A stretch of DNA of 64,000 nucleotides from Flavobacterium lacustre (GTDB taxonomy: Bacteria > Bacteroidota > Bacteroidia > Flavobacteriales > Flavobacteriaceae): positions 1,426,001-1,490,000 of the forward strand of contig NZ_CP114882.2 of NCBI RefSeq assembly GCF_027474525.2, given 5' to 3'. The translations under genes were made by a program, and so were the position numbers. A model generated the notes under the pieces. That model was not told the DNA's origin. It worked only from the letters and a program-made list of their open reading frames with translations, and did not search any database. Below are positions 13,456 through 53,783 of this stretch, in pieces (position 1 is the first letter of the stretch; every line of letters starts with the position of its first letter).

Positions 13456-13461
13456 TGTTTT

Positions 13462-16167
13462 TTAATTATTTTCTATTGTATTATAATTGGGTAAAGTAAA
13501 GGAGAAAGTGGCGCCGTTAGTTTCATTATTTTCGGCCCAAATGTTTCCTTTATGGTGTTCAATAATTTGTTTGCAAATTGCTAATCCTAATCCGCTTCCA
13601 ATGGGTTTTTTGACATTTTGGTTTCGGGATTGGTAGAATTTATCAAAAATAGCTTCAAAATCTTCTTTTTTAATTCCTTTGCCGTTGTTGTGAATTCTTA
13701 CTTCGACATTGTCTTTGTTTTCAATAATTTGAATCGAAATTTTACCTTCTTTTTCGGCACAGAACTTTATAGCATTCGACAGTAAATTGTGCATCACCTG
13801 AATGATGCGTTCTTCGTCATAAAAAGCTTTTATTTCCTTATCGGCATCATTAAATTCGAGCGCTATTTTTTTGTTGTTTATTAATTGTTTTAAAGAAGCT
13901 ACTGTTTTTGAAATTGTCTTTGAAATGTCATTTCTGGAAAGATAAATTTTCTGTTTTCCGGTTTCAAATTTTTCTAAATCCAGAATTTTATCAATCAATC
14001 GATTCAATCGGTCGGATTCCGAAATGATATTTTGTAAAAACTGTTTTCGCAGTTCCGCCGGAATGTCTTCATCATCGTGAAGGATTTCGCTTGCGGCCCG
14101 AATCGCGGTGATTGGCGTTCGTAATTCATGCGTCACGGTATCCAGAAATTCATCTTTTTGAATGTCTTTGTTGACCAGCTCCTGATTGGCATTTTTTAAC
14201 TGTTCGGAAATTTTTTGTAATTCGGTTGATGTTTCGGTTAGTTTCTTGTTGACAATAATATTTTCTTTGGATTCTTCTAAAATGCGCAATACTTCGGTCA
14301 GACTGATTTTGTCTTCTTTGACTACGCTTGAGATTAATATTTTGGCGGAAGCCGTACCAATATGTCCTGTTAATAAATTTTCGGCAAACTTGATAAATCG
14401 AGCATCGGCCGTTGTTACTTTTTTATCGATATTGTATTTTAAATTAAAAATGGTCAAGGCTCTTTTTGTTCGTTCTTCCCCAAGAAAACGCTGTAGTACT
14501 TTTTGAATATCAGATACATAAGCAGTTCCTTTCCATACAAAAGCATCTTCGTGATTGGTGATGTATTTGTCTATGTCTACAAACATTTCGGCATAATTAC
14601 GCTCTCTGTAGTTTCCTTTGAAACTCACGGAAATACCGGAATAACTGATGACATTAAAAAATAAACTCCAAAAAAGAGCATGTGGAATCGGGTCTAAATA
14701 ATCTAAACCAAAGAGTTGAAACGGTTTTAAGAGTTCGATTCCCCAAGGTCCTTCTTGTACAAAGGTGTTAGTGGATGCTGTAAGACCGATAGCATAAGGC
14801 AGCAAAAGGGTGTAAAAACACATGAGGAAACCAAGAATGATTCCGGTAATTGCTCCTTTTTTTGAACCTCTTCTCCAGAATAATGCGCCAAAAAAGGAAG
14901 GTGCTAATTGTGCAATAACCACAAAGGAAACCAATCCGATGGAGACTAAAGAATAGTCTAAAATGAATATTCTATAGATGGCATACGCCAAAATTATCAA
15001 CGAAAAAATACCTATTTTTCTGCTGATAACAATTCGTTTGTTGTTTTTTTCCTGAGAGGTATTTTGTAAGGAACCAATGAAGCCATATGGAATCAAAAGG
15101 TTGTTACTCAGCATGGTTGCCAATGCAATCGAGGAAACGATAATCATTGATATTGCAGCCGAAAATCCACCAAGAAAAACTATAACAGTTAGAAAATTAT
15201 TATTAAAAAATTGAGGAATTAACAATGAATAGGTATCAGAATTGAGTCCTTTTCCTTCAAAAAGAATATTTCCGCCCCAAGCAATAGGAAAAACAAAAAT
15301 ATTGAACAGTAATAAATATAATGGAAATAACCACATCGCAGTTCGAATATGGGATTCTTTATTATTCTCTACAATTGCGGTATGAAATTGTCTTGGTAAA
15401 AGAAAAATCGCAAACATGGACAAAATACAAAGAAAAAACCAATTGATTCCGCTGCTGAGATCGCCTATTGAATTCTTTTTGTCAAAATTTTCAAGAACAG
15501 CTGCTTTGGTGTAAATATCATCAAATCCGTCGTAAACGAAATAAGTTACATAAACGCCAATGATTAAAAAGAAAACTAATTTCAATATCGATTCCATCGC
15601 CACTGCGGTTACAATTCCACGTCTTTTTTCGGAAGCATCCACATATTTTGTTCCGTAATAAGAAGCAAATAATGCCAGCGCCAGACAAACATAAGTTGTT
15701 GTATCATTGAAGATATTAGAACTCGACTGCGTTTTTGTTACAATATGAAACGTATCCGAAATTGATTTTAGTTGTAATGAAATGTAAGGTAAGATTCCGA
15801 AAATACAAATTACAGTAACCAAAGCGCCAAGAAATCGGCTGTTTCCGTATCTCAATGAAATGAAATCAGCAATACTCGAAATTTTGTTTACTCTTGAAAT
15901 TCGGATAATTCTTTTAAGGATAATCATCCAAGTCGGAATGATTATTATGGGACCTAAATAAATGGGAATGTAACTTAAACCAGAGTTTGCGGCAAGACCA
16001 ATGCTGCCATAATACGTCCAGGCTGTACAATATACAGCTAATGAAAAGGAATAAATGTAAGGGTTATTCGTCCATTTAGAATGACTCCTTTTTTCGGCCC
16101 AATAGGCGATGTAAAAGAGAATTGACAAATAAAGTCCTAAAATCAATAAAAGTCCTATGCTACTCAT
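13462..16167 (-). CDS. Sodium/solute symporter-fused sensor histidine kinase (CrbS-like)
   Basis: Membrane sensor of 901 residues. The first ~540 residues are a sodium:solute symporter (SSS/PutP-type) domain with about 13 membrane helices (for example AVYCTAWTYYGSIGLAANSG). A coiled linker leads to a HisKA domain with the phosphorylated His680 in THELRTP, and a HATPase_c domain with the N box (NLLSNAIKF) and G boxes (NNGKGI, GSGLGLAI). This is the layout of CrbS/CbrA kinases, which couple substrate transport or sensing to control of acs. Its start overlaps the small upstream gene by 8 bp, and the receiver gene follows after 6 bp. Confidence 0.9.
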   Translation of the reverse strand: MSSIGLLLILGLYLSILFYIAYWAEKRSHSKWTNNPYIYSFSLAVYCTAWTYYGSIGLAANSGLSYIPIYLGPIIIIPTWMIILKRIIRISRVNKISSIADFISLRYGNSRFLGALVTVICIFGILPYISLQLKSISDTFHIVTKTQSSSNIFNDTTTYVCLALALFASYYGTKYVDASEKRRGIVTAVAMESILKLVFFLIIGVYVTYFVYDGFDDIYTKAAVLENFDKKNSIGDLSSGINWFFLCILSMFAIFLLPRQFHTAIVENNKESHIRTAMWLFPLYLLLFNIFVFPIAWGGNILFEGKGLNSDTYSLLIPQFFNNNFLTVIVFLGGFSAAISMIIVSSIALATMLSNNLLIPYGFIGSLQNTSQEKNNKRIVISRKIGIFSLIILAYAIYRIFILDYSLVSIGLVSFVVIAQLAPSFFGALFWRRGSKKGAITGIILGFLMCFYTLLLPYAIGLTASTNTFVQEGPWGIELLKPFQLFGLDYLDPIPHALFWSLFFNVISYSGISVSFKGNYRERNYAEMFVDIDKYITNHEDAFVWKGTAYVSDIQKVLQRFLGEERTKRALTIFNLKYNIDKKVTTADARFIKFAENLLTGHIGTASAKILISSVVKEDKISLTEVLRILEESKENIIVNKKLTETSTELQKISEQLKNANQELVNKDIQKDEFLDTVTHELRTPITAIRAASEILHDDEDIPAELRKQFLQNIISESDRLNRLIDKILDLEKFETGKQKIYLSRNDISKTISKTVASLKQLINNKKIALEFNDADKEIKAFYDEERIIQVMHNLLSNAIKFCAEKEGKISIQIIENKDNVEVRIHNNGKGIKKEDFEAIFDKFYQSRNQNVKKPIGSGLGLAICKQIIEHHKGNIWAENNETNGATFSFTLPNYNTIENN

Positions 16168-19668: not shown

Positions 19669-20088
19669 TTAATCCTTAAATCTTTCCCATTTTATAAGCA
19701 TAAACTTGTCTCCAAGCTCGGTTATTATCATACCTGCACCAGAGAGTAATTGCTTGTTTTTTAAATACTCAACTAGTTCTAAATGACTAAAAATCTTATA
19801 AGTAGGATGGTAATTTGCATGAGATGGTTTTTTGATGTTAAAGGTTTTTACCCAGTTGCTGACCGTTACATGAGAAACCCCGATAATTCGCTCTATTTCA
19901 CGATAACTTAAGCCTTCTAAATACAATTGTAATGCTTTGGTAACATAGTAATCGTCTATCTTTTTTCCGATTTTGTTAACCGTAAAAAAATAATTACATT
20001 TTTTACATAAGTACCTTTGTTTACTGTTGATTACGCCGCTTTTTACGATGTGTGTATCTTGGCATTTCGGACAGGATAAAATCTCCAT
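19669..20088 (-). CDS. InsA-like zinc-ribbon/HTH protein, probable regulator
   Basis: A zinc ribbon at the N-terminus (SCPKCQ ... CKKCNYFF, two CxxC pairs) is followed by a helix-turn-helix (GLSYREIERIIGVSHVTVSN), the layout of the IS1 InsA protein. A C-terminal ~45 residue extension (from YHPTYKIF) is not part of InsA. No InsB/DDE transposase, terminal inverted repeats or target duplication are visible, so it is probably a domesticated DNA-binding protein. I chose the ATG at 20088; an in-frame ATG at 20124 would lie at or before a probable start of transcription, judging from a TATAATTG box just upstream. It is adjacent to the porin gene, so control of the acetate module is possible. Confidence 0.65.
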   Translation of the reverse strand: MEILSCPKCQDTHIVKSGVINSKQRYLCKKCNYFFTVNKIGKKIDDYYVTKALQLYLEGLSYREIERIIGVSHVTVSNWVKTFNIKKPSHANYHPTYKIFSHLELVEYLKNKQLLSGAGMIITELGDKFMLIKWERFKD

Positions 20089-20124
20089 ATATATAAATTT
20101 TGCATAAATATAGTAATTTTGCAA

Positions 20125-20353: not shown

Positions 20354-20366
20354 GTGGTACCTCCAG
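20347..20366 (+). repeat. Left attachment site (tRNA-Phe 3' end copy)
   Basis: GGGTTTTGTGGTACCTCCAG matches the sequence at 31751-31770 with one mismatch, and the last 13 bases are identical. It duplicates the end of tRNA-Phe and the arm of the downstream terminator. On the far side both copies are also flanked by ACAAAAAACCC, so the element carries an imitation of the tRNA end plus its terminator. Confidence 0.8.
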
Positions 20367-20429
20367 CACCAACCAAAAACGCTGTTAAGTGCCGTAAACA
20401 AAGAGTATTTTGATATTTTTAGTTTTCTG

Positions 20430-20447
20430 GTAGAATACTGGTAGAAA
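20430..20447 (+). promoter_or_regulatory. Candidate integrase arm-type sites, left end
   Basis: Two GGTAGAA boxes start at 20430 and 20441, exactly 11 bp (one helical turn) apart, about 65 bp inside the left attachment core. The same box with the same phasing recurs at the right end. Confidence 0.55.
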
Positions 20448-20583
20448 CGCCTTATTTATATTAATTCTAAGATTAAATTGATGGTTTATCGTTCTTTAGA
20501 CCTTTTGTTTTGTTGCTTTTGGTTTAAACAGACAGGCTAAATTATAATAGGGGTTTTCTAAAATATGTTATATCTATTAAATA

Positions 20584-20609
20584 AAAAAACCACCTAAAAG
20601 GTGGTTTTA
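20584..20609 (-). terminator. Terminator after the element's leftmost gene
   Basis: A stem AACCACC / GGTGGTT with loop TAAAA is followed on the minus strand by a run of seven Ts. It lies downstream of the membrane-protein gene. The 140 bp between them hold only T-rich repeats (TTTTGCGTTTTCG-like). Confidence 0.7.
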
Positions 20610-20753
20610 CTATAGGTTTATAAAATCAACTATCCGTACCATGTACTACCCTCGATAACTTTATTTGTTGTTTTCATTTTTTTGTCTTTTTTGCGTTTTC
20701 GTTTTTTGCGTTTTTTCGTTTTTTGTTGTAGTGCTGGGTAAATATATTATTTT

Positions 20754-21842
20754 TTATTGATTTCTGTAAAAAAACATTGTAAATTTTTCACCCGATAATA
20801 AAACGTCTCTATTTATATATGCCATTTTATCTTTTTGGTAAGTTCCATTATGATAGAACTTATTACCATTTAAAGGTACAAATGTAATATTAATATTTTC
20901 ATTATGTTCTATATTAATTGTTAAATCATCTATTATTCTTGCACTCCCGAACGTGAAAATTCTATCTAGTTCTATATTTTGTTTCATAATAGTGATACTC
21001 TCTATATGATACTCCAAATGTCCCGCCATTTTTTTTGAGAGCGTTAGTGTAGTAATATTCTTGTCTTTTGTTTCTGCAATGTTAATTTCTATGAAATCCA
21101 TTTCATCATTATTCTTTGAATAAAATTTAATATCAACATTTGCGTCTGCATCCGAATTATCATAGTTCGACTTAAAATCAAATTCAAATTCTTCCTTATT
21201 TGGACGCATTATTGTAAATGACGACCTCTCGGTTACTGCTACGTATTTGTTATCTATAAGCTCAATATAATAATTTACCTGAAAATTCTTGTAATAGTAT
21301 GATATGTTATTCTTTTTAAATAAATGGTTTTCAATTTTATTTTCAAGTTTATCATATAGTTCCGGAAATTCTTTCTTGTATTTACACAAAGTAACAGTTT
21401 GCCAAATCTTATCTAAATTACTTTGTTTGTTTAAATGATCTTGTGAATATGCGAGAGCATCTATTTTTGTAGTTAATAGGTTGTCAAACTCATCTGACAT
21501 TATGATGCTTTTGAAATTTTTCTTAAATACATTTAGTGAATCCAAAAAATTTAATGTAGTTGTGAATATACCGGCACTGAATAATATTTTACATAAATCT
21601 TTTATAAACTCATAGTTATGAATATGCTTAAATTCTATAAAAGCAAAATCAATAAATAAAAATGATATTGCAGGAATTAAAAAAATAATAAACATGTAGT
21701 TTTTTAAATAGACTAAATATTTTCTAAAAACTGGAATGAGTTTAAAAAAGTCACTGATGAAAAATAATATAAGAATTGAAATTATTATTATAAAAAGTGT
21801 GCTTATTATATTTAATGCGGGGCTTTCAAAAGATTCTATCAT
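20754..21842 (-). CDS. Unknown membrane protein with beta-rich cytosolic domain
   Basis: A 362-residue protein not assigned to a family. Helices at about 12-32, 47-68 and 78-102 anchor it in the membrane. A helical linker follows to about residue 175. The last ~185 residues are rich in alternating hydrophobic and charged strands (for example KYVAVTERSSFTIM and INITFVPLNG), suggesting a beta-barrel or sandwich. It is the last gene of the element, has its own terminator, and is separated from the rest by the 50 bp repeat array. This is the usual place for an accessory gene. The layout recalls membrane effectors of bacterial immunity (short membrane anchor plus beta-rich sensor), but no partner cyclase or sensor gene is present and this is only a structural analogy. 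Confidence 0.6.
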   Translation of the reverse strand: MIESFESPALNIISTLFIIIISILILFFISDFFKLIPVFRKYLVYLKNYMFIIFLIPAISFLFIDFAFIEFKHIHNYEFIKDLCKILFSAGIFTTTLNFLDSLNVFKKNFKSIIMSDEFDNLLTTKIDALAYSQDHLNKQSNLDKIWQTVTLCKYKKEFPELYDKLENKIENHLFKKNNISYYYKNFQVNYYIELIDNKYVAVTERSSFTIMRPNKEEFEFDFKSNYDNSDADANVDIKFYSKNNDEMDFIEINIAETKDKNITTLTLSKKMAGHLEYHIESITIMKQNIELDRIFTFGSARIIDDLTINIEHNENINITFVPLNGNKFYHNGTYQKDKMAYINRDVLLSGEKFTMFFYRNQ

Positions 21843-21968
21843 AATTATTTTTTTTTCTCAATTTTATAAAAATAGTAAATTATACTAAATTTCTTCTTTT
21901 ATTCGCACTTATTTATGTTTTTGGGTTGTTTTTTATTTTTACCATGACTTACTGTATGTCTCCTATAG

Positions 21969-22665
21969 ATCGGTTCACATTGGATCAGTAAATCAGGACC
22001 AGCATATCACTCCAGCAGATAGGCCCGCATTGGATCATTAGATCAGGACCAGCATATTACTCCAGCAGATAGGCCCACATTGGATCATTAGATCAGGACC
22101 AGCATATTAATCCAGCAGATAGGCCCGCATTAGATCAGGACCAGCATATCACTCCAGCAAATTACTCCATCAGATAGGCCCGCATTGGATCATTAGATCA
22201 GGACCAGCATATTACTCCAGCAGATAGGCCCGCATTGGATCAGTATGTCAGGACCAGCAGATCACTCCAGCAAATTGGGCCGTATTGGATCAATAAATCA
22301 GGTCCAGCAGATCACTCCAGCAAATCGGACCGCATAGGATCAATAGATCAGGTCCAGCAGATCACTCCAGCAAATCACTCCAGCAAGTTGGCCCGCATTG
22401 GATCAGTATATCAGGACCAGCAGATCACTCCAGCAAATCGGACCGCATTGGATCAATAGATCAGGTCCAGCAGATCACTCCAGCAAATCACTCCAGCAAG
22501 TTGGCCCGCATTGGATTAGTATATCAGGACCAGCAGATCACTCCAGCAAGTTGGACCGTATTGGATCAATAAATCAGGTCCAGCAGATCACTCCAGCAAA
22601 TCGGACCGCATTGGATCATTATATCAGGACCAGCAGATCACTCCAGCAAATCACTCCATCTGATT
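21969..22665 (+). repeat. Array of about thirteen 50 bp tandem repeats
   Basis: Units begin with GGACCAGCA or GGTCCAGCA at 21996, 22046, 22096, 22138, 22201, 22251, 22301, 22351, 22414, 22464, 22527, 22577 and 22627 (last one partial). Most are 50 bp; one is 42 bp, and three are 63 bp through duplication of a 13 bp piece (TCACTCCAGCAAA). Each unit has the core CACTCCAGCA, a GG(A/C)CCGCATTGGATCA segment and several GATC sites. Units 1-5 and 6-13 form two sequence subtypes, and a 113 bp pair is itself duplicated (22351-22463 and 22464-22576). The array is about half GC in an AT-rich setting. Its role is unknown. Confidence 0.95.
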
Positions 22666-22855
22666 AAAGTTTTGGTTTTGGTCGCTTCTTGAATATCATG
22701 TCTTTTTTAATGTTTTTAATAATGCTTAACACTATTAAAATAATACTTCCAGCTTCTTTGATAAAAATTAAGGTTTCCATAATTTGAAATGTTTTAGGAA
22801 AGGTCCAAAACGCCTTAATAAATAAAAAGGACACGATTTTCAGACTTTTTTTCAA
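22664..22855 (-). CDS. Possible small single-helix membrane protein
   Basis: A 63-residue frame whose stop touches the end of the repeat array. An internal ATG at 22783 would give a 38-residue protein with one hydrophobic helix (GSIILIVLSII) and a strongly basic tail (KKRPKPKL), the general form of small membrane toxins or phage-encoded membrane peptides. No family is recognised, and it could be a chance frame. Confidence 0.3.
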   Translation of the reverse strand: MKKSLKIVSFLFIKAFWTFPKTFQIMETLIFIKEAGSIILIVLSIIKNIKKDMIFKKRPKPKL

Positions 22856-23063
22856 AGGTCTGAATGTGTTTTATTTTATGCTGTGACATGTAATTTACAC
22901 ATACTTTATGTGTCACATTTAAACTTAAATTAAAATCGTATATGATCAAATTAATGTCTGAATTTCTACCAGTTTTCTACCAACAATACAAAGAAAACAT
23001 GTAAAGTGTTGATTTTATTAGTTTTACTGTATTTGTTTCAAGTCCTATACAGACCATGCCATA
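22856..23063. other. Non-coding stretch with an inverted pair of GGTAGAA boxes
   Basis: No gene is visible. The stretch has an imperfect inverted repeat around 22880-22920 (GTGACATGTAATTTACACAT and TATGTGTCACAT) and, at 22964-22981, two TTCTACC boxes 11 bp apart. These are the reverse complement of the GGTAGAA arm-type boxes at the element's ends, so it may be an extra site for integrase or excisionase. Confidence 0.4.
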
Positions 23064-23090
23064 AAAAAACCGCCTGTTATAGCGGTTTTT
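23064..23090 (-). terminator. Terminator of the 24.46-23.1 kb gene group
   Basis: A stem AACCGC / GCGGTT with loop TATAACAG is followed by TTTTTTT on the minus strand, 25 bp after the stop of the 78-residue gene. Confidence 0.7.
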
Positions 23091-23114
23091 GGTTGTTGTT
23101 TATCTGTGGTAGAG

Positions 23115-23351
23115 TTAATCTGTTTGTATTTGCTTTTGGGCTTCCAGTTCAGCTAATAACTTATTAACTGGAGTTGTTAAAATGGTGTATAGTGTAGTTC
23201 TTGAAATTGGATAAACGGGAACTATGTATTTTCTCAAAATTACGGTATCTGGAATGTCCTCCGTTTTGTGTTTATTGTATAAATCTACTATTAATTTATA
23301 CCTTTTCAACTTATTGGTTTGAATCCCTATATTTTGTTTTGTGTTTCCCAT
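23115..23351 (-). CDS. Hypothetical 78-residue protein
   Basis: A small basic protein (MGNTKQNIGIQ...) with a possible helix-turn-helix at about 48-65 (YPISRTTLYTILTTPVNKLL). No family is recognised. It lies 53 bp downstream of the HNH-like gene on the same strand and is followed by a terminator, so it is probably the third gene of that group. Confidence 0.5.
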   Translation of the reverse strand: MGNTKQNIGIQTNKLKRYKLIVDLYNKHKTEDIPDTVILRKYIVPVYPISRTTLYTILTTPVNKLLAELEAQKQIQTD

Positions 23352-23404
23352 TCTGTAAAAATAAATTATTTATTAATGGTTTGCAACCCGATTTTTTTTA
23401 ATCA

Positions 23405-24151
23405 TCAAAGCCCTTTATACTTGTTTTTGTTCGCTTTTCTTAAAGGAATTTGAATTTTTGAACCTAAATTTTTTAAGGTTTCATTTGTTTTTTTGTTCTT
23501 TTCGGTGGCGGTGGGTGGCGTTGGTTCAAAGTCCATAAGTTGCAAAAGTCCGTTTTCTTGATCCTGTAAACATTCATTTATTAATAGTGATAAATATTTG
23601 TTTATGGTGTTAATTCCATTTCTTACCGTGTAACCGTTTACTTTGCTTAATTGGGCTTTGCTTTGGCTTTTATTAAATGGTTGTAACCATTCGACAAATA
23701 AATTAAATCCTGTATTGTTATGGTGGAAATAAATAAACCCTCTTTGCTTTGCTATTTGGTTTAAATGGTCTTTAAACCAAAAATTTTGTGTATTTATTTT
23801 TTTAGGTACTTCAAAATATAATCTTATAGCGTTTATTATTTCGCTTTCGGGCGGTGCCGTGTGCTGTATTCCAGTACTGGCATACTCTAAATTATTATAA
23901 TCAAAATCCTTATTGTTTCCATTCAAAAACAGTGTTTTGCCGTTTCTTACTGGTATTTTTTTAAAAGTTTCCAAAATTAACTTTGGCAAATTGTATGTTT
24001 TGCCGTTTATTATTGCTTTTCCTGTCTTTGTGGGGCTTATAGCATTGCCAGTGGTATAATTGTGAATCTTGCCTTTATTTGTTAAATACAGCCCTTTTAT
24101 GGTTGTTTTTCTATAACCTTTGCTTTGGAGTTCTTTAATTGTCATTTTCAT
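23405..24151 (-). CDS. Protein with a degenerate NUMOD4/HNH-like N-terminal fold
   Basis: About 248 residues from the ATG at 24151, which overlaps the end of the upstream gene by 17 bp; a longer start at 24190 would overlap by 56 bp. The first ~95 residues follow the pattern of NUMOD4/HNH proteins: a GLYLTNKGKIHNY strand pair, a GKTYNLPKLILETFKKIP helix, then FLNGNNKDFDYNNLEYAS. The last matches the usual NHIDGNK..N..NLEW motif, but the catalytic His position is Leu, so nuclease activity is doubtful. The rest is unassigned. It may be a DNA-binding relic of a homing-type nuclease. Confidence 0.55.
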   Translation of the reverse strand: MKMTIKELQSKGYRKTTIKGLYLTNKGKIHNYTTGNAISPTKTGKAIINGKTYNLPKLILETFKKIPVRNGKTLFLNGNNKDFDYNNLEYASTGIQHTAPPESEIINAIRLYFEVPKKINTQNFWFKDHLNQIAKQRGFIYFHHNNTGFNLFVEWLQPFNKSQSKAQLSKVNGYTVRNGINTINKYLSLLINECLQDQENGLLQLMDFEPTPPTATEKNKKTNETLKNLGSKIQIPLRKANKNKYKGL

Positions 24152-24461
24152 TTTTTGCGGTTTTAATGTAACGTGATACGGTGCTAACACTTTTATTCAA
24201 AGTAACCGCAATTTGTTTGTAACTCATTCCCGAATTAAACAGATCGTTAGCTTTATTTTTTATCGGGGTTGTTTCCCTTTGGGCTTTCCAGTTTTCGGCA
24301 ACATACCATTTTTCAATTGTCCTAAATGGTGTATCCGTTATTTTTCCGATCTCTACCAAAGACAAACCTATTAAGTAATATTTTTTTGCTTTGGCTTTGT
24401 CGTCTAAGGTGTACGATTTTCTTTGTATTGGTTCGGGTTGCTTTTTTTTGATTTTTGTCAT
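24135..24461 (-). CDS. Double helix-turn-helix protein
   Basis: A 108-residue protein with two HTH motifs: YYLIGLSLVEIGKITDTPFR at about 29-48 with the following TIEKWY, and SGMSYKQIAVTLNKSVSTVS at about 76-95. The first resembles the N-terminal HTH of phage terminase small subunits, and the second is a HTH_23-like module. No terminase large subunit is present, so a regulatory or replication role is more likely. It is the first gene of a three-gene group whose upstream gap holds the repeat-rich region described next. Confidence 0.6.
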   Translation of the reverse strand: MTKIKKKQPEPIQRKSYTLDDKAKAKKYYLIGLSLVEIGKITDTPFRTIEKWYVAENWKAQRETTPIKNKANDLFNSGMSYKQIAVTLNKSVSTVSRYIKTAKNENDN

Positions 24462-25099
24462 TATGGGTGTTTTTGAAGTTTATAGAATTATGGTAGTAGT
24501 ATAATGGTAGTAAAATGTGTTTTTAAACTAAAAATTTGCCTGTTTTAGTTAAGGGTTGTTTTTGACTTTTTTTAATTTGTTTTTGGTTAATTATTTTTCA
24601 AATAGCCCTTTTGTTTTTTTTCTGGTGGCTTGTGCCTTGCTTATTGATTTTGAGCCCTTTTTTTAAGTAATCGTGTCTTTTTGGTGTTTTGGGTGTTGGT
24701 TTTGGCTTGTTTATCCAGTATTACAGTGATTTAAGGGTGTTTTATGAATAATTGCCGTTTTTACTACCTTTTTTACTACCATTTCAGACCTTTTTTTGTT
24801 TTAGCCTTTATTCTTTGAATTGGTAACACTTTTGTAACTCTCTAACTATTACTTAAACTCAATACTGGTGCGGGTGTGCTCCCTATCGGGAGTATATTAC
24901 AAGTTTCCACAAAAAAAATATGGGAATATACGTGTGTCATTTGAACCGTTTTTTTTATCATTATGTATCATTTGAAATTTAATTTTAGTTTAAATTATTG
25001 TTTTACAGTGATTTAAAGAAGTTACACAAGTGTTACTTTTTATAAATGTGCTTTTCAATCCTTTTATTTTGTCATTAAGTATCAATTGATATTAAATTT
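24462..25099. other. Repeat-rich non-coding region, candidate replication origin
   Basis: No credible gene lies in these 638 bp. Visible elements are ATGGTAGTA at 24490 and 24504, facing an inverted pair (TACTACC, 12 bp apart) near 24770; the direct repeat TTACAGTGATTTAA at 24721-24734 and 25003-25016; a near-complementary pair GTAACACTTTTGTAAC (24823-24838) and GTTACACAAGTGTTAC (25021-25036); the hairpin CTCCCTATCGGGAG (24879-24892); TCATTTGAA at 24937 and 24968; and the palindrome TATCAATTGATA near 25080. This density, next to a possible replication initiator gene, suggests an origin. It is inference. Confidence 0.45.
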
Positions 25100-26047
25100 T
25101 TATATAACTATTTGTTTTTCAGAATTATAAGCGTTTTTCCAAATGGGTACTATTTTACTGTTTTTAATGTCAAATTCGTGGCGAATAGCTTCCCAGTTGT
25201 TAATAAACTCTTTTACTGTGTAAAATTGTCGTTTAGAAAGTGCGTTGTTTTCGTACTGGCTTCTATATTGATTTAAAACACATATTTTGCCGTTATAAAT
25301 AATATTCCTTATTAGATCTATTTTGCCCCGTGTTGTTCCCTTTGGGGCGGTTATGTCATTGTAAAAATTAAGGTTTTCCCATTCATTGAAAAACAAATTT
25401 TGCAACCTGATTAAATTATCTAAATTCAAAAAATCCTTTAAAAATGCTTTTTCGCAACGCCTGTGTACTGTTTCAATTCTAATTATATTTAGTCCAGTGG
25501 GGGTGCGCCTGTTTTGTTTGTCCAGCATTTCAAAAACTTTATCGTAAATCTTAAAATAAAGCCTATAATCTCGGTGTCGTTCGGTTGTTACTTGCCTATT
25601 GTCTTTGTGATTTGCATCTATTAAAAAGATTTTTTCTTTATGTTTTCCGATGCTGTGTATAGCTTCCAAAACTGTTTTGGGTTCAATGGGTAATTTTACA
25701 TTTATGCCTATTTCAAAAAATGTAATTTCTACTTTATCGGGATTTATTCCAGTGTTGAAAATAAGCCTTTCAAATGTTGCTTTGGCTTGTTGCATCGTAA
25801 AGCTGTCAAAGTTTGTCAGGCTTCCAGTTTCTAAATAAGAATAGTATTTGTGTAAACTTCCAGTTATTTTTAACCGATTGTTAGGATCAATTTTTATAAA
25901 CAAACCGCCTGTAAAGTTTTTAGTAGTTCGATTGTCATAATAGATTAAGCCGTTTAATGAATTACGCATTAAACGGCTGTTTTTTATGATGTTCTTTATT
26001 TCGGTTTCTGATAAATTTTTATTTACCATTGTGATATTGTCAATCAT
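25100..26047 (-). CDS. Possible replication initiator (phage/plasmid gene II/X-like)
   Basis: 315 residues from the ATG at 26047; the frame opens further upstream only with TTG. The sequence has the order seen in gene II/X-type phage/plasmid replication proteins: an LKITGSLHKYYSYL strand-helix segment, a KATFERLIFNTGINPDKVEI stretch followed by TFFEIGINV, a YFKIYDKVFEML segment, and an IIRIETVHRR strand. I recall this pattern from filamentous-phage and plasmid Rep proteins of Bacteroidota; catalytic residues cannot be assigned with certainty. Its 3' end faces the repeat-rich gap that may be the origin. The AAATACGCAAA motif lies in its leader. Confidence 0.5.
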   Translation of the reverse strand: MIDNITMVNKNLSETEIKNIIKNSRLMRNSLNGLIYYDNRTTKNFTGGLFIKIDPNNRLKITGSLHKYYSYLETGSLTNFDSFTMQQAKATFERLIFNTGINPDKVEITFFEIGINVKLPIEPKTVLEAIHSIGKHKEKIFLIDANHKDNRQVTTERHRDYRLYFKIYDKVFEMLDKQNRRTPTGLNIIRIETVHRRCEKAFLKDFLNLDNLIRLQNLFFNEWENLNFYNDITAPKGTTRGKIDLIRNIIYNGKICVLNQYRSQYENNALSKRQFYTVKEFINNWEAIRHEFDIKNSKIVPIWKNAYNSEKQIVI

Positions 26048-26079
26048 TTTATATATTTGCAAAGTGCTAAACGTTAATA

Positions 26080-26090
26080 TTTGCGTATTT
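26080..26090 (-). promoter_or_regulatory. AAATACGCAAA motif upstream of the Rep-like gene
   Basis: An exact 11-mer (AAATACGCAAA on the minus strand) 33 bp before the start codon. It is one of four copies, each in the leader of a separate minus-strand gene of the element. Confidence 0.5.
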
Positions 26091-26107
26091 TGTTTTAGTT
26101 ACAGTAT

Positions 26108-26133
26108 AAAAGCCCCTTTCAAGGGGCTTTTTT
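26108..26133 (-). terminator. Terminator after the excisionase-like gene
   Basis: A stem AAAAGCCCC / GGGGCTTTT with a six-base loop lies at the stop codon of the excisionase-like gene. The hairpin with T runs on both sides could work in both directions. Confidence 0.65.
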
Positions 26134-26416
26134 ATGCCCTACTTTCAATAAAATAACTTATATCGGCTCGCTTAATTAGTACCTTACTATACTTCTCTGA
26201 CTTCATTTTAATGACACTAAAAAAGCCTTTATCTACATAGCTTTGAAATGTGTTTCTACTACATTTTAGCATTTCCATAGCTTCCTTGGGGGTTAACATT
26301 TCCTTTTGTCCTATGGTTTTCATTTCGTGCAATGATTTTGCTATACTGGTTAAATTAGTTTTCATTTCTTCCCATTCATTTAATGGCACTGTAATAACTG
26401 CTATACCCGTTTGCAT
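26132..26416 (-). CDS. Excisionase-like helix-turn-helix protein
   Basis: A 94-residue protein. The N-terminal ~45 residues form a helix (WEEMKTNLTSIAKSLHEMK). The C-terminal half is a winged HTH of the HTH_17/MerR-like excisionase type: MLTPKEAMEMLKCSRNTFQS, then a wing (YSKVLIKRADISYFI). Proteins of this kind pair with tyrosine integrases in Bacteroidota mobile elements, where they bend DNA for excision or act as regulators. It is not next to the integrase, so a regulatory role is also possible. It is 17 bp after the upstream gene. Confidence 0.75.
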   Translation of the reverse strand: MQTGIAVITVPLNEWEEMKTNLTSIAKSLHEMKTIGQKEMLTPKEAMEMLKCSRNTFQSYVDKGFFSVIKMKSEKYSKVLIKRADISYFIESRA

Positions 26417-26433
26417 ATAAATTATTTTAAAGG

Positions 26434-27051
26434 TTATTTAAATAGATTTACGCACGTTAATTTTGGTGCAAATTTGCTGTCTTTAAAGGTTAGCAAGGTT
26501 TCAAATAAATCGTCTGGCGTAATGTTTCCCGATGTTTTTAATTCATTTATTCGTGTCATTTTTTCTGAAATTTCCTCCAGTAATTTAATGGCTTCGGTTT
26601 GCTTTTCGTTTTCTACATACAAAGAGCATTTTTCGTGTATGTGTTGTTTTACCTTTTGGCAAACTTCTAAATTATTATTATTTCCAATAACAAAACTATC
26701 AGTAAACCAGTGGTTTTGACTTGCAATTTGTTGGCTTGCTTTGTCGGTAATTATTTGGTTTATTAACTCGTCTGTTCCTACTGGCTTTTCAATTATTTCG
26801 AAAAGCTTTTCGGGGTTCATTTTTAAACCTCCAATATTAAGGCTTTCCCCGTGTGTAATTTGTTGAGTTAAAAACGCTTTAGGATTGTCAAAAAGTGGGT
26901 TTAGGTCTTTAGCTTCCAATGGCTTTAAACATAGTAAGGCGTATTTGTTTAAATACTCCTGAAAGTATTTTTGTTTAGGCAAATAAAACCCTAATTCGTT
27001 TTTAATCTGTGCATCGTTGGTGTGTAATAACACCTTTTCAAAATTTTTCAT
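26434..27051 (-). CDS. Unknown element protein, 205 residues
   Basis: No family recognised. A mainly helical, soluble protein without signal or membrane segments; residues 105-170 carry amphipathic stretches such as QTEAIKLLEEISEKMTRINE. It lies 9 bp downstream of the 27061-27360 gene and 17 bp upstream of the excisionase-like gene, so it is part of one transcription group. Confidence 0.6.
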   Translation of the reverse strand: MKNFEKVLLHTNDAQIKNELGFYLPKQKYFQEYLNKYALLCLKPLEAKDLNPLFDNPKAFLTQQITHGESLNIGGLKMNPEKLFEIIEKPVGTDELINQIITDKASQQIASQNHWFTDSFVIGNNNNLEVCQKVKQHIHEKCSLYVENEKQTEAIKLLEEISEKMTRINELKTSGNITPDDLFETLLTFKDSKFAPKLTCVNLFK

Positions 27052-27060
27052 AATGGTGGT

Positions 27061-27360
27061 TTAAATGGATTTTTTATCTAAGTATTTAAAATACATTTCT
27101 ATTTTTTGCTCTTTGGTGGCTTTTGAATTTTGGGGTGTAATTTCGGATTTAAACCAACTTATGTACTTTTCCTGTTGGCTTTGGTAATCGTTCCAAAATT
27201 TGCTTTCTTTGGCTCGGTTAACCTCGAATTTGTTAGCTTCTAAAAACTTCAAACCTTTTTGAACGGTAAGCGTTTTAAATTCCTGTTGCGTGGTTTCGAA
27301 CTCCTTTAGAATGTCATTGCTAAAATTCTTTAGTAGTGCTTCCATTTCTTTGATTTTCAT
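27061..27360 (-). CDS. Unknown coiled-coil element protein, 99 residues
   Basis: A highly charged, helical protein (MKIKEMEALLKNFSNDILKE...). I chose the ATG at 27360, not 27393, because a 45-codon reading frame ends only 2 bp upstream of it, which fits translational coupling. No family recognised. Confidence 0.55.
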   Translation of the reverse strand: MKIKEMEALLKNFSNDILKEFETTQQEFKTLTVQKGLKFLEANKFEVNRAKESKFWNDYQSQQEKYISWFKSEITPQNSKATKEQKIEMYFKYLDKKSI

Positions 27361-27362
27361 GT

Positions 27363-27500
27363 TTAAATAGTGTTTAATTTTGGGCTTGAGCAATAACTTA
27401 TTACTGTATGACCAAAGAGTTTAATTCTAATTTGTGCGCCTGTAAAATCCATATTTTCATTGTGGATCAATACCTTTTCAACTGTAAATATTTGTTTCAT
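27363..27500 (-). CDS. Small 45-residue protein
   Basis: A short frame from the ATG at 27500 to a TAA at 27363, beginning MKQIFTVEKVLIHNE and ending SSPKLNTI. It stops 2 bp before the start of the next gene in the same direction, the tight spacing of real operon genes in this element. No family recognised; a beta-rich small protein is likely. It is below usual size cut-offs for gene calling. Confidence 0.5.
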   Translation of the reverse strand: MKQIFTVEKVLIHNENMDFTGAQIRIKLFGHTVISYCSSPKLNTI

Positions 27501-27682
27501 TTTTTTGTGTGATTTTGGTTAATTATAAAAAAATCAATCATCATAAAATGTATAGGTTAAACCCTCATTTGTATTTTATATCAACATCATTTATAAAAAG
27601 CACTGAAAAAAATCGGTTTTGATAGTGTGCTTGGGGGTCTGTAATTAAATCCTATTGGCCCCCTAAATGATTGATTTTGTTT

Positions 27683-28006
27683 TTATAGGTCTTTTATTTT
27701 TAACGCTATGTTTTCGACTTCTTTTTCAATTAGTAGTTTATCTAAAAACTCCAGTTCAACGTCTGGAACTAATTTTTTGCCAATGGTTGCCAATCCTCCA
27801 CAAGTTGCCAAATCCGCTTTATCTCCATAAAGCCCTATCGTTTCAATAGCTGAAAAAATGGCAGAAAGAGCATAACCAATTTCTGAATAATTAGAAAATG
27901 TCATTTCTTTTAAAACTGGCTCTTGCTCAAACTGACTAAATTCTAAATAAGTTGAAATATTTTTTAATGCTTCGGGGCTGTATTCTGTAATTGTTTTTGT
28001 ACTCAT
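27683..28006 (-). CDS. Unknown element protein, 107 residues
   Basis: An acidic protein with a helix-rich pattern and a Gly/Ala-rich middle (TCGGLATIGKKLVPDVELEF). No membrane segment is clear and no family is recognised. The AAATACGCAAA motif lies 5 bp upstream of its start codon, as for three other genes here. A 7 bp GC-rich inverted repeat (GGGGGTC / GGCCCCC) about 20 bp downstream lacks a T run. Confidence 0.55.
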   Translation of the reverse strand: MSTKTITEYSPEALKNISTYLEFSQFEQEPVLKEMTFSNYSEIGYALSAIFSAIETIGLYGDKADLATCGGLATIGKKLVPDVELEFLDKLLIEKEVENIALKIKDL

Positions 28007-28010
28007 AGTT

Positions 28011-28021
28011 TTTGCGTATTT
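28011..28021 (-). promoter_or_regulatory. AAATACGCAAA motif upstream of the 107-residue gene
   Basis: An exact copy of the 11-mer, ending 5 bp before the ATG. One of four such copies in the element. Confidence 0.5.
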
Positions 28022-28065
28022 TGATTTTTAATTAATTATTTATTCAATGCAATAGCATTATTTTT

Positions 28066-28347
28066 TTAATCGGATTTATTAGGGTTTTGTAGTTCGTTCG
28101 TTGGTGTAGCGTTCCATTTGTCGGCTTTTGATTTTGCTTTGACAATAGCATAAACCATTTCTTTGGGTTCTTTGTAATTAGGTTCTAATTGTGCCAAAAT
28201 TTCTGTTTGTATAGACTGGAGACTTTCCTCTAATCCTTTTAACTCTATTTCTTTTTGTTGCTTTTCAAATAGCACTGAATTTGCTATTTTTCCCAATCGT
28301 TTGGTGTTGTGGGTTTTTTTGTCTAAAAATTCGATCCAGTGTTTCAT
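28066..28347 (-). CDS. Unknown coiled-coil protein, 93 residues
   Basis: A charged protein with a predicted coiled coil at about 25-55 (EKQQKEIELKGLEESLQSIQ) and a polar tail. It starts 1 bp after the stop of the DUF6046-like gene, so the two are probably translated together. No family recognised. Confidence 0.55.
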   Translation of the reverse strand: MKHWIEFLDKKTHNTKRLGKIANSVLFEKQQKEIELKGLEESLQSIQTEILAQLEPNYKEPKEMVYAIVKAKSKADKWNATPTNELQNPNKSD

Positions 28348-28348
28348 T

Positions 28349-29008
28349 TTATTTAATTATTAGATTATAATCGAAGTCGCTAAATGCTTTTATTTCGTAT
28401 GCCTGTACATTTTCGCCTTTTGTAAATGGGAAGCTAAACTCTTCTATTGCTATTTTGTTTATTCCCAAAAGTTCTAAAAGGGGGCAAAAAACCCAAACAT
28501 CTTTTGTTACTTTCAAGAAATTTAATAAGAGTCTTAGTTGTTCTTTTGGGTAACAGTCCTCGTGCTTTCCTTTTAGTTTTTTCCCAATTAATACGCCTGT
28601 TATCGTAATTTCATAGTCTTTGGGTGCTATGCGTTGTTTTATTGTTCCGATTAATTTGTTCCCTGATGTGTCGTTAATTCTAGCAACCTTTGTTTTTCCA
28701 ATTTCATTACCTCCTAAAACACTGATCAACGGCTCGTATGGAAATAACCATTGAGTACCTTTTTCCGTAAAACTAAACGACAAAGGAAAAAACTGTTGTT
28801 CTTTGCTTTGTTCGGGGTCTGCTTCCCAAATATATTTTTGTTCTGCTTGGTTAACTTCTTTAATTCCCGTTATATTTCTAAATGGTAAAAACTGAATAGG
28901 CGGAAAAACGTGTTTTGTTATTTCGTTCTCTACAATGTCAAGCCGTTCAAGTGTTTTAATGGCTTTGCTCCCCATTAATGATGCAAATAAAATATCCTGA
29001 TTATTCAT
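28349..29008 (-). CDS. DUF6046-like phage-type protein
   Basis: A 219-residue protein whose C-terminal half follows the pattern I recall for DUF6046, a family common in phages and prophages of Bacteroidota: an ITITGVLIG strand, a YPKEQLRLLL helix, WVFCPLLELLGINKIAIEEF and a final YEIKAFSDFDYNLII. The N-terminal half includes an FPFRNITGIKEV strand segment. In phages such proteins lie among tail or baseplate genes, yet no other tail gene is present here. It is in a tight group with a coiled-coil gene on each side (10 bp and 1 bp gaps). The family call rests on memory of the pattern. Confidence 0.55.
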   Translation of the reverse strand: MNNQDILFASLMGSKAIKTLERLDIVENEITKHVFPPIQFLPFRNITGIKEVNQAEQKYIWEADPEQSKEQQFFPLSFSFTEKGTQWLFPYEPLISVLGGNEIGKTKVARINDTSGNKLIGTIKQRIAPKDYEITITGVLIGKKLKGKHEDCYPKEQLRLLLNFLKVTKDVWVFCPLLELLGINKIAIEEFSFPFTKGENVQAYEIKAFSDFDYNLIIK

Positions 29009-29018
29009 TTTATAATAG

Positions 29019-29213
29019 TTAGTTTTTTAAATCCAGTTTTTGCGGTTCGCTTTCAGTGGTATAATGCAAAATCATTGTTATTTGGGTTTTTTCCTTTGCT
29101 CTCAAATCTTTGATTTTTTGAGTTATACGCTTCAATAAGTTACTTTGTTCTTGCAAATCTTTTTTTGTTTGATCCAGTTCCAAACACGTTTTTTTGATTT
29201 TTTCAAAGTCCAT
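29019..29213 (-). CDS. Small coiled-coil protein, 64 residues
   Basis: A charged helical protein with heptad-like spacing (ELDQTKKDLQEQSNLLKRIT) over about residues 8-45. It lies 21 bp after the HTH regulator gene and 10 bp before the DUF6046-like gene. No family recognised. Confidence 0.55.
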   Translation of the reverse strand: MDFEKIKKTCLELDQTKKDLQEQSNLLKRITQKIKDLRAKEKTQITMILHYTTESEPQKLDLKN

Positions 29214-29234
29214 TTTATAAAGTTTACAGTTAAT

Positions 29235-29453
29235 TTATACGCTCGCAACCGCTTGCAGTTCCATTATGGCACTGGCTTTGGCTTCCTTATATTCTTTAAG
29301 GTATTGAGCCGTTACTTGCATTAAATTTAAATTCTCTTTGGTTTCTTCTCCACGGAAAAACCTTTGCACTGTGGCGTAATTAATCCCGCTACGTTTAACG
29401 ATTTCTTTAACTGCGCCAAGTGGTAACTGGGTTCTAATTTGTTGAATGTCCAT
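29235..29453 (-). CDS. HTH transcriptional regulator of the element
   Basis: 72 residues from the ATG at 29453. A longer frame to 29531 is possible, but the -7 box at 29507-29514 would place transcription start inside it. The HTH covers about residues 12-35 (AVKEIVKRSGINYATVQRFF), followed by a helix (LMQVTAQYLKEYKE), a compact repressor-like fold. It is the first gene of a group with the coiled-coil and DUF6046-like genes. Paired inverted repeats flank its promoter, so it probably controls itself. Confidence 0.7.
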   Translation of the reverse strand: MDIQQIRTQLPLGAVKEIVKRSGINYATVQRFFRGEETKENLNLMQVTAQYLKEYKEAKASAIMELQAVASV

Positions 29454-29483
29454 TTGCTTGTTTTTTAATGAATGATAAATAAA

Positions 29484-29552
29484 GCATAAATTACTTTTAT
29501 GCACGACAAATGTATATAAAAAAACGTGCATAAAATAATTCTATGCACGTTT
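29484..29552 (-). promoter_or_regulatory. Promoter with paired operators for the HTH regulator
   Basis: A perfect minus-strand -7 box TACATTTG (plus-strand 29507-29514) lies between two inverted repeats. One is GCATAAATTACTTTTATGC at 29484-29502; the other has arms AACGTGCATA and TATGCACGTT within 29522-29552. All four half-sites share TGCATA or its close variant GCATAA. This is a typical autoregulated repressor promoter. The second repeat, with its T run, could also end the upstream transcript. Confidence 0.65.
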
Positions 29553-29578
29553 TTTTTAATTATTTATTAAAATAATAT

Positions 29579-30319: not shown

Positions 30320-30326
30320 TGTGTTT

Positions 30327-30337
30327 TTTGCGTATTT
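30327..30337 (-). promoter_or_regulatory. AAATACGCAAA motif upstream of the integrase-adjacent gene
   Basis: An exact 11-mer ending 7 bp before the chosen ATG at 30319. Further upstream a TTAATTTG box resembles the -7 consensus. Confidence 0.5.
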
Positions 30338-30382
30338 AATTACTCGGTGTTGCAAATTAACAAAAAAATGCAGTTGTTTTGT

Positions 30383-31576
30383 TTAAAAATTCACTGCTAT
30401 TAATTCATTTTCTATTGTCTTATCCATTATGTGACCATAAATTTGAGTAGTTGCAATTTTCTTATGTCCTAAAATCTTTTGTACTGATGTAAGACTTACG
30501 CCTTTATAAAGTAAATATGTGGCGGTGGTGTGTCGGGCGGTGTGAAATGTAATTAACTTATCAATTTTAGCCAGTCCCGCCAATGTTTTTAATGTGCGGT
30601 TTGCGTACTGGTTTGTAATCTGTTCAAAACAAAATACAGTATCAAAACGATTGTATTTGTTAATAATCTCAATCGGCTTGCCGTTAAAAATTGCGTAAAT
30701 TGGTATTCTCACGCTTTCGTCTGTCTTTTCCATTTTCTTGATTAACCAAGTATTCCCGCCAATGGTTACAAGTTCCCGTTTTTGCATGCTCAACACATCA
30801 CTAAAACGCAACCCAGTATAAATGCTATACATAAATAAATCCTTTATGTATTGTAATTTTATATTTTCGCCTGTTAAAACTAAATCTTGCATTTGGTCTA
30901 TTTCTTCGGGTGTAAGAAATATTTTTCTGCTTTCCATTTGCTTAATTTTAAATTTCCTAAATGGGTATTGTTGTACATTCATTAAATCCTTGTTAATTGC
31001 CAAATTCACATAGCTTTTCAAGTTCTTGAAATACTTAAAAATCGTGTTTTGGCTTAATTTTTTAGGCGGTAAATTTTTGTAAGTAATGTTTATTTTTCTT
31101 AAAAATGTTTCGAAGTCGTGCAGAAATTCAAAGGTTATATCTTCATAGTAAATCACTTTTTTAAATTCCTTTAGCCTTTTTAAAGTCATTTCGTGAGTTT
31201 TTCGGGTTGCACTTGAAATGGAATTATTTTTAATTTCCAGCTCCATAAACTCTGTAAAGGTTTTTATTTCGTTACCGTTCAAAAAGTCGTTTAACATTCC
31301 CAAATTAAAAGGCTTCCCCGCATTAATTTTGTCCAGTTCGTAGTTTTCAAAATCCCGCATTGTTTCGGCAATTTGTTTATTTAACTTAATGGCGTTGGGG
31401 TATTCCGTTTTAATTGTACGGTTTTTATAGTTCCAGTAGATCGGTTCTATATAAATTTGGGTAGAAAAATATTTGTTTCTCCCGTTCAAATAACACTCAA
31501 TTTGTATGAGTGCTTTGCCTTGTGTATTTAACTGGTTTTTCCTGTCAAACACAGGCGTGTAGCGTGTTTTGTTCAT
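30383..31576 (-). CDS. int: Tyrosine recombinase/integrase of the element
   Basis: 397 residues from the ATG at 31576; an upstream ATG at 31600 falls within the probable -7 box and is rejected. The N-terminal arm-binding domain (about 1-90) is followed by a SAM-like core-binding domain (about 95-200) and the catalytic domain with Arg in YTGLRFSDV, His-x-x-Arg in FHTARHTTATYLL, His in LGHKKIATTQ and nucleophile Tyr in IYGHI. It is the phage-integrase type common in Bacteroidota mobile elements. It lies next to the tRNA-Phe attachment site and should catalyse integration and excision. Confidence 0.95.
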   Translation of the reverse strand: MNKTRYTPVFDRKNQLNTQGKALIQIECYLNGRNKYFSTQIYIEPIYWNYKNRTIKTEYPNAIKLNKQIAETMRDFENYELDKINAGKPFNLGMLNDFLNGNEIKTFTEFMELEIKNNSISSATRKTHEMTLKRLKEFKKVIYYEDITFEFLHDFETFLRKINITYKNLPPKKLSQNTIFKYFKNLKSYVNLAINKDLMNVQQYPFRKFKIKQMESRKIFLTPEEIDQMQDLVLTGENIKLQYIKDLFMYSIYTGLRFSDVLSMQKRELVTIGGNTWLIKKMEKTDESVRIPIYAIFNGKPIEIINKYNRFDTVFCFEQITNQYANRTLKTLAGLAKIDKLITFHTARHTTATYLLYKGVSLTSVQKILGHKKIATTQIYGHIMDKTIENELIAVNF

Positions 31577-31580
31577 AATA

Positions 31581-31605
31581 TTTGCGTATTTAGATAGCAA
31601 ATGTA
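31581..31605 (-). promoter_or_regulatory. Integrase promoter: -7 box plus AAATACGCAAA leader motif
   Basis: TACATTTG (plus-strand 31598-31605) is a perfect TAnnTTTG box on the minus strand. The shared AAATACGCAAA motif at 31581-31591 starts 6 bp after it, so it would overlap the transcription start or the first transcribed bases. It lies 4 bp before the ATG. Confidence 0.6.
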
Positions 31606-31627
31606 TGTAAACATTTTTGATAAATCG

Positions 31628-31656
31628 GGTAGAAATCGGGTAGAAAACTGGTAGAA
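31628..31656 (+). promoter_or_regulatory. Candidate integrase arm-type sites, right end
   Basis: Three GGTAGAA boxes start at 31628, 31639 and 31650, exactly 11 bp apart, between the integrase promoter and the attachment core. The spacing and position fit arm sites bound side by side on one face of DNA. They also lie just upstream of the integrase -7 box, so integrase could repress itself. Confidence 0.6.
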
Positions 31657-31731
31657 AAAAGATTGATATTTAATGATATTCTTTTTTGTCAAAAAAATGA
31701 AAAGCCCAGTAAAATAAGGACTTTAAACAAA

Positions 31732-31756
31732 AAACCCACTCGTTATGAGTGGGTTT
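31732..31756 (-). terminator. Terminator of tRNA-Phe (element-borne)
   Basis: A perfect stem AAACCCACTC / GAGTGGGTTT is followed on the minus strand by TTTTTTG. It follows the tRNA 3' end by 3 bp and mirrors the hairpin just outside the left attachment site. Confidence 0.75.
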
Positions 31757-31770
31757 CGTGGTACCTCCAG
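31751..31770 (+). repeat. Right attachment site (within tRNA-Phe 3' end)
   Basis: The 20 bp partner of the left site, with one mismatch. Thirteen bases (31758-31770) are identical and cover the last 12 bases of the tRNA gene. Confidence 0.8.
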
Positions 31771-31831
31771 GGATCGAACCAGGGACACATGGATTTTCAG
31801 TCCATTGCTCTACCATCTGAGCTAAGGTACC
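31759..31831 (-). tRNA. tRNA-Phe (GAA anticodon)
   Basis: A 73-base tRNA on the minus strand. The acceptor stem is GGTACCT / AGGTACC with discriminator A, the D-arm contains AGCTCAGATGGTAGAGC, the anticodon stem-loop is ATGGA-CTGAAAA-TCCAT with anticodon GAA, and the T-arm contains GGTTCGATCC. CCA is not encoded. It is the integration target of the 11.4 kb element, whose insertion restored an intact 3' end. Confidence 0.97.
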
Positions 31832-39203: not shown

Positions 39204-39214
39204 TTGTATATTTT

Positions 39215-53708: not shown

Positions 53709-53783
53709 TTAGAACACATTAATTTGTCTAAAATAAAGTGATTTAGGAAATTAAAAAGGCAATGGTAAAGGTGGATTGATGTG

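Follow-up and report, generated by a model that had tools for sequence, protein, structure and literature searches.

Tandem repeats far richer in GC than their surroundings stand out in Flavobacterium lacustre at 21969..22665 of the window, the whole 64,000-nucleotide stretch of DNA that was analyzed. The locus raises the question of what such a block belongs to and whether it acts as DNA, as RNA, or through a protein. Our analysis suggests that the block belongs to an integrative element, that it occupies the same spot in several related elements, and that it probably acts as DNA.

Structure of the array and its host element

TRF reports 12.9 copies with a period of 50 at 21978-22652, and higher-order repeats extend to 22658. 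The top score of the array is 649, for a period of 163 (a 113-bp higher-order repeat is also reported), versus a maximum of 66 in 20 order-1 random windows. The anchor AGG[AT]CCAGCA occurs 13 times, and its 12 spacings (eight of 50 bp, three of 63 bp, and one of 42 bp) run in the order 50, 50, 42, 63, 50, 50, 50, 63, 50, 63, 50, 50. Together these confirm the 13 units, one 42-bp variant, and three 63-bp variants described in the initial annotation. The 63-bp units are longer because a 13-bp sub-unit (ATCACTCCAGCAA or a variant) is present twice. A duplicated 113-bp pair had also been noted, and its copies at 22350-22462 and 22463-22575 indeed match at 108 of 113 bases. The claimed GC enrichment holds as well: the array has 47.9% GC, whereas other 697-bp windows (1,239, overlapping) have a mean of 33.6% and a maximum of 42.9%. 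So does the abundance of GATC, with 25 sites in the array (35.9/kb) versus 1.75/kb across the entire window, array counted in. The inverted GGTCC...GGACC pair said to occur in many units was overstated. Counting this motif pair only, both halves are present in just 2 of the 13 units.

The array was placed inside a mobile element, and this is correct. A 13-bp sequence of the tRNA-Phe 3' end occurs twice, 11,404 bp apart; these att-like cores flank the array and delimit an integrative element of 11.4 kb (20354-31770) at tRNA-Phe. The features of the element are as follows.

20354..20366, + strand: left att-like core GTGGTACCTCCAG, the displaced tRNA-Phe 3' end, with a terminator-like hairpin before it (putative role)
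20427..20447, + strand: pair of GGTAGAA repeats close to the left end, putative integrase arm sites
20754..21842, - strand: 362-aa membrane protein, an accessory gene beyond the array
21969..22665, no strand: GC-rich tandem array, 13 anchors, 50-bp units plus 63- and 42-bp variants
22664..22780, - strand: open reading frame of a 38-aa hydrophobic/basic peptide (METLIFIK...), its stop codon touching the array
22963..22981, - strand: GGTAGAAAACTGGTAGAAA site close to the candidate origin block, an additional copy of the arm-type site, inverted
23032..23055, - strand: conserved block AGTCTGTATAGGACTTGAA in which 5 bp may form a stem, putative nick site for rolling-circle replication
23115..23351, - strand: p78, a 78-aa protein conserved in part of the relatives
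23405..24190, - strand: HNH-like protein adjoining the array
24135..24461, - strand: two-HTH DNA-binding protein HTH108, with matches to HTH families that include those of terminase small subunits
25100..26062, - strand: rolling-circle Rep with a predicted RepDE-like fold, first ATG probably at 26047
30383..31600, - strand: tyrosine integrase (Phage_integrase, 1.2e-22) beside tRNA-Phe
31622..31657, + strand: three GGTAGAAA direct repeats, candidate integrase arm sites
31758..31770, + strand: right att-like core within the tRNA-Phe 3' end (tRNA 31758-31831, - strand; putative role)

Both ends of the element have GGTAGAA(A) repeats nearby that resemble arm sites of the integrase. In other family members, the HNH gene is followed by a comparable GGTAGAA site. 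Just beyond the left end of the element lies a stand-alone 151-aa protein with an InsA-like zinc ribbon and an HTH (19669-20124, - strand).

No reliable Pfam family was found for the Rep. Its predicted model (mean pLDDT 85) resembles staphylococcal RepDE (4cwc) with a Foldseek E value of 2.4e-6 and a TM score of only 0.43-0.48, and by this predicted fold it is a rolling-circle initiator. The HNH-like protein matches phrog_959 (E 3.6e-6) and, weakly and in 4 of 12 members, HNH_3 (best E 0.0073). Its predicted fold is similar to I-HmuI (Foldseek E 0.012, probability 1.00, 93 columns). All 12 family rows lack a histidine in the expected stretch, judged against what we take to be the HNH motif, and carry FKNGN, FLNGN, and variants instead. 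Therefore, the protein probably binds DNA without cutting it, which makes it a natural candidate for the reader of the array. An extra N-terminal copy of the HNH domain is present in L059, L060, L063, and L066 (by tblastn) and in L064 and L067 (by eye); the presence of this copy does not track that of the array. Relatives of the HNH-like protein were found in 4 of 299 genus genomes, including the window's own, and in 2 of 299 genomes of a family-level draw (the window's own plus one weak match), and none was confirmed in IMG/VR.

A Pfam scan of the 15 element ORFs, part of them also compared with PHROGs and NCBIfam, matched no ParA/ParB (or parM/parR) family. Nor did the element proteins scanned against Pfam, PHROGs, and NCBIfam match any capsid or relaxase family. 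The 219-aa protein p219 (28349-29008, - strand) matches DUF6046 (E 1.7e-28) and a PHROG annotated as "baseplate hub." It is similar to a tail-related protein of Flavobacterium phage FPSV-S1 (27% over 39% of the query) and to a protein on a 10.5-kb faecal phage contig (39% over 68% of the query). Of 398 genus genomes, 14 (among them the window's own) contain a match to the 362-aa membrane protein. We considered it as a partner of the array and rejected this, as six 20-kb loci around its relatives (L053-L058) show no GC-rich array adjoining the gene. One of these loci (L055) has AT-rich pairs of 92-100 bp, and another (L057) has a 24-bp x 4.8 repeat ~3 kb off.

Recurrence of the array in the element family

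Rep searches identified relatives in 21 of 398 genus genomes (own included), along with 18 loci from the species-genome collection and 6 from IMG/VR. Homologues of both HTH108 and the HNH-like protein accompany Rep at 11 of the 18 loci, HTH108 alone at 1, and neither at 6. (L059 and L062 are the same contigs as L047 and L048.) The close family analyzed here has 13 members: the 11 loci with both homologues, the window, and L052 (G276). The family is characterized by a tyrosine integrase and a RepDE-like Rep of the rolling-circle type, together with a protein carrying two HTHs and an HNH-like one that lacks the expected histidines.

A GC-rich tandem array lies directly 3' of the HNH gene in 7 of the 13 members, from Flavobacterium, Sphingobacteriaceae, and Sunxiuqinia. 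Unit length varies between 48 and 111 bp, and most of the unit sequences are distinct.

Window: 50 bp x 13
F. aquicola (L060): 50 bp x 29
F. sp. ZT3R18 (L063): 68 bp, ~11 units, 5 N
F. davisii (L064): 63/84 bp, 3.6 kb, in a chromosome record
Sphingobacteriaceae MAG (L065): 48 bp, reaching the contig end
F. muglaense (L066): 51 bp, including an N gap
Sunxiuqinia (L071): 111 bp x 4.2
Core of the window array: GATCCAATGCGGnCC

The seven arrays have 48-55% GC versus 31-40% in flanking DNA. The slot is constant although the neighboring tRNA gene varies (Phe, Met, Asp, Arg). In F. davisii, all nine of nine matches to one array stretch sit together at the array. Fourteen control loci from outside the close family (252,586 bases, unmatched to the family for mobile-element content) contain no array with a period of at least 30 and at least 3 copies; the nearest control repeats are 24 bp x 4.8 (49% GC) and 41 bp x 2.2 (59% GC).

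The array is absent from five members (L052, L059, L061, L072, and L067). All that F. branchiophilum (L067) has is a short GC-rich stretch without repeats, in which 17 of 17 bases are shared with an L063 flank. The contig of L062 stops 296 bp past the HNH frame, which is too early to judge. Because the five array-less members include the close relatives L059 (Rep 79%) and L061 (Rep 77%), the array appears to be dispensable. On a Rep tree of 12 rows, which omits L072 and scores L062 as array-less although its contig ends early, the array label requires five changes and does not cluster; therefore, gain and loss look frequent. At the level of genome comparison, this shows the array to be a GC-rich satellite that recurs in a family of rolling-circle integrative elements, can be dispensed with, and turns over fast. 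The slot also holds accessory genes, namely, the 362-aa membrane protein in the window and PDC-S02 in L059 and L061. The latter is a candidate defence gene, matched by a scan at 13436-14425 in L059; the L061 gene at 13177-14166 is assigned by its near-identity to that of L059, as judged by eye. Flavobacterium sp. ALJ2 has two family elements (L059 and L062), beside tRNA-Met and tRNA-Phe.

We then compared the arrays with each other, reducing arrays of more than 1,800 bases to their first 1,800 and removing N. Two pairs are homologous, the window with L060 and L063 with L064. The window and F. aquicola units align along their full 50 bp. Between these pairs, the window and F. davisii arrays have in common a 30-bp core, ACTGMTCCAATGCGRGCCAACWWGCTGGAG, with 26 of 30 identical bases and a score of 20, whereas 56 controls, reversed or complemented, score no higher than 11. 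Rep identity to the window's is 47% for L064 and 50% for L063, and the orientation of the core relative to the genes is opposite in the window and F. davisii clades. The window-L063, L060-L063, and L060-L064 comparisons score 14 to 15. We did not find the core in L065, L066, or L071. The best scores of these three versus other arrays reach 12.5; a common core is unproven for them because such scores barely exceed the control maximum. A motif shared by all arrays was rejected, as nothing rose above shuffles.

The unit of the window array is not a dispersed repeat of the host chromosome. The source genome (one 3.45-Mb contig) has a single match to the array, a relaxed unit pattern gave no further hit there, and the array was found in 1 of 299 genus genomes, the window's own, and in none of the other 298. 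No match to the window array was found in plasmids or phages by blastn, an exact 25-base pattern from it had no hit in IMG/VR, and the F. davisii and Sunxiuqinia arrays had no match in phages. A helper phage or plasmid as the source of the unit was dropped on the basis of these empty searches.

Possible functions of the array

Our preferred reading, which we hold tentatively, is that the array is a fast-turnover cis site at the DNA level, probably bound by a protein of the element. It would be a fast-evolving GC-rich minisatellite proper to integrative elements of ~10-13 kb with a tyrosine integrase and a rolling-circle Rep. Its slot would be framed by the HNH gene and a candidate origin block on one side and by the element end or a relocated integrase gene on the other. 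The many copies may form a platform in cis for an element DNA-binding protein, with the HNH-like protein or its HTH neighbor as the first candidates. Binding could serve a partition-like, copy-control, or DNA-protection role while the element is excised and replicating, and copy number and sequence would turn over by slippage or unequal recombination. We prefer this reading because the array has the same slot in seven members whatever the tRNA gene, because the controls contain nothing comparable, because a core is common to the window and F. davisii despite Reps only 47% identical, and because the arrays are consistently GC-rich relative to their surroundings. The full-length alignment of the window and F. 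aquicola units, the RepDE-like fold of the Rep, and the I-HmuI-like neighbor without the expected histidine also argue for it. The array-less members, the unclustered label on the Rep tree, the lack of a motif in all arrays and of the 30-bp core in L065, L066, and L071, and the inversion of the core between clades argue against it.

The main rival, which is possible though we consider it doubtful, is a functionless neutral minisatellite. Here, a GC-rich seed by the rolling-circle origin would have been expanded and homogenized by slippage and recombination, and the GC bias could come from repeated gene conversion. Arrays that appear and vanish between close relatives, with units of variable length and sequence, are what such a process would leave, and the short unrepeated stretch in L067 and the degenerate look of the end units (by eye) are also consistent with it. 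However, it does not readily account for the placement of seven of seven arrays in one slot, the retention of the 30-bp core across divergent clades, or the control loci being free of such arrays.

A bolder form of the cis-site reading is unlikely in our estimation. The arrays would be a new class of cis DNA site, a fast-diverging "centromere-like" satellite found in rolling-circle integrative elements of Bacteroidota. Its reader would be an HNH-fold protein that has lost nuclease activity and in many cases has its domain duplicated, and co-evolution of site and reader would make each element incompatible with its relatives.

It is improbable that the array is a DNA stuffer that adjusts the element to a size a helper phage could package. 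Element size could be estimated in nine cases (L063, L065, and L066 left out; the L071 end guessed from a 14-bp repeat) and spans 10.1-13.3 kb, and the F. davisii element would be the smallest of all if its 3.6-kb array were removed. The similarity of p219 to phage baseplate and tail-related proteins, and that of HTH108 to terminase small-subunit HTH families, among others, would also fit. However, array length and remaining length are not clearly related (Pearson -0.58, p 0.10; Spearman -0.27, p 0.48; n = 9), and the standard deviation of size is hardly smaller with the arrays (1,096 bp) than without (1,182 bp).

More improbable still is that the array forms the untranslated tail of a transcript encoding a small, type I toxin-like membrane peptide. 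A hydrophobic/basic ORF of 37-38 aa ends at the array start in both the window and F. aquicola, where the relative lies in the same place (L060, 13034-13147, + strand), and ~400 bp of DNA before and across this ORF is conserved between the two. In the stretches preceding the other five arrays, however, the peptide has no convincing counterpart (best E 0.021, a fragment in the L065 stretch). A search of 299 genus genomes gave matches at E ≤0.1 in 53, of which only the window's own is clear (1.1e-22; next 0.0023). The array also shows no fold above shuffles. A general link between small peptides and arrays was rejected, since it is limited to the window and L060.

The initial annotation had proposed an iteron or partition site, among alternatives that included a phase-variable spacer. 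A partition-like or other protein-binding site acting at the DNA level falls within our preferred reading, although no ParA/ParB family was matched among the element proteins. The iteron part, in which the array would be the iterons of the replication origin itself, is very unlikely given the array-less members and a better origin block. The array does consist of direct repeats within a Rep-bearing element. To our knowledge, rolling-circle Reps of the RepDE kind, the fold predicted here, do not use long iterons. The conserved block AGTCTGTATAGGACTTGAA lies outside the array, just 3' of the HNH gene or p78. At least 16 of its 19 bases are found in 7 of the 13 members (window, L059, L060, L061, L064, L066, and L072), versus chance hits of up to 14 of 19 in the same elements. 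Four further rows were aligned by position (L062 at 14/19, L065 and L052 at 13/19, and L067 by eye). Because it is present outside the array and is kept in the array-less L059, L061, and L072, the block appears to be a better origin candidate than the array. It was not recognized in L063 or L071, both of which bear arrays, and this would favor iterons. Over 11 rows, 90% of cells in the 5-bp stem pair versus 10-46% when slid; shuffles reach the same, however, and only two cells are changed on both sides, too little covariation to establish the stem.

Terminator-like hairpins on the gene strand precede the array in L063, L066, and L071. In the window, such a hairpin (23065-23090, + strand) is separated from the array by the small peptide ORF, and in L060 and L064, one was found after the array. 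The evidence for terminators is weak because hairpin numbers are near those of shuffles and, in L064, below them.

Finally, a coding or structured-RNA locus is scarcely credible: periods divisible by 3 and long open frames occur in L064, L066, and L071, but the window, L060, and L063 periods (50, 50, and 68) break the reading frame, each of the six frames of the window array has 6-17 stops, the fold z-scores of seven consensus units (as two copies, on 2 strands, with 2 energy models; n = 28) all lie between -0.53 and 1.69, and Rfam matched nothing over the array. The window array is thus not part of a translated protein gene, and the earlier suggestion of a structured RNA source is unsupported.

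Comparison with known systems

Like sopC/parS of the F plasmid, the window array has tandem repeats in the range of about 40-60 bp. Unlike that system, the element has no matched ParA/ParB family, most window units lack the inverted GGTCC/GGACC motif, the unit is not conserved in the element family, and some members have no array. Iteron arrays of plasmid origins are also direct repeats in elements with a Rep gene; however, the Rep here has a predicted rolling-circle fold, and the better origin candidate is elsewhere. The usual iterons are far shorter than these units. Bacterial minisatellites or VNTRs have the same quick turnover of copy number and sequence and degenerate end units, whereas the arrays here are confined to a single slot in a single family of mobile elements, in several genera, and keep a core in two clades.

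The element itself is similar to tRNA-integrated phage satellites and integrative mobilizable elements in its size, its tyrosine integrase at a tRNA gene, and its HTH regulators. The accessory slot (PDC-S02 in L059), the baseplate-like protein, and the terminase small-subunit HTH matches of HTH108 are further likenesses, with the difference that no capsid or relaxase family was matched. The ssDNA prophages of the phiCjT23 type are described as ~6-8 kb with dif motifs on both flanks (PMC9719478). On that description, the element does not look like this type because its own integrase sits at a tRNA gene.

Eukaryotic centromeres typically have satellite arrays that stay in position while their sequence diverges. 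A bacterial element family that behaves in this way would be a small, testable system for telling functional sites in an arms race from by-products of replication, and this family supplies a concrete candidate origin and a candidate reader protein. What appears to be new here, from the genomes compared, is an element family with recurring, position-conserved, mostly sequence-divergent GC-rich arrays. The titles and abstract openings in the literature searched, a set to which subscription papers and preprints do not belong, contain no description of the family or its arrays. Elsewhere in the window, two matches to Flavo-1 RNA are present at 39212-39287 and 53781-53923 (+ strand).
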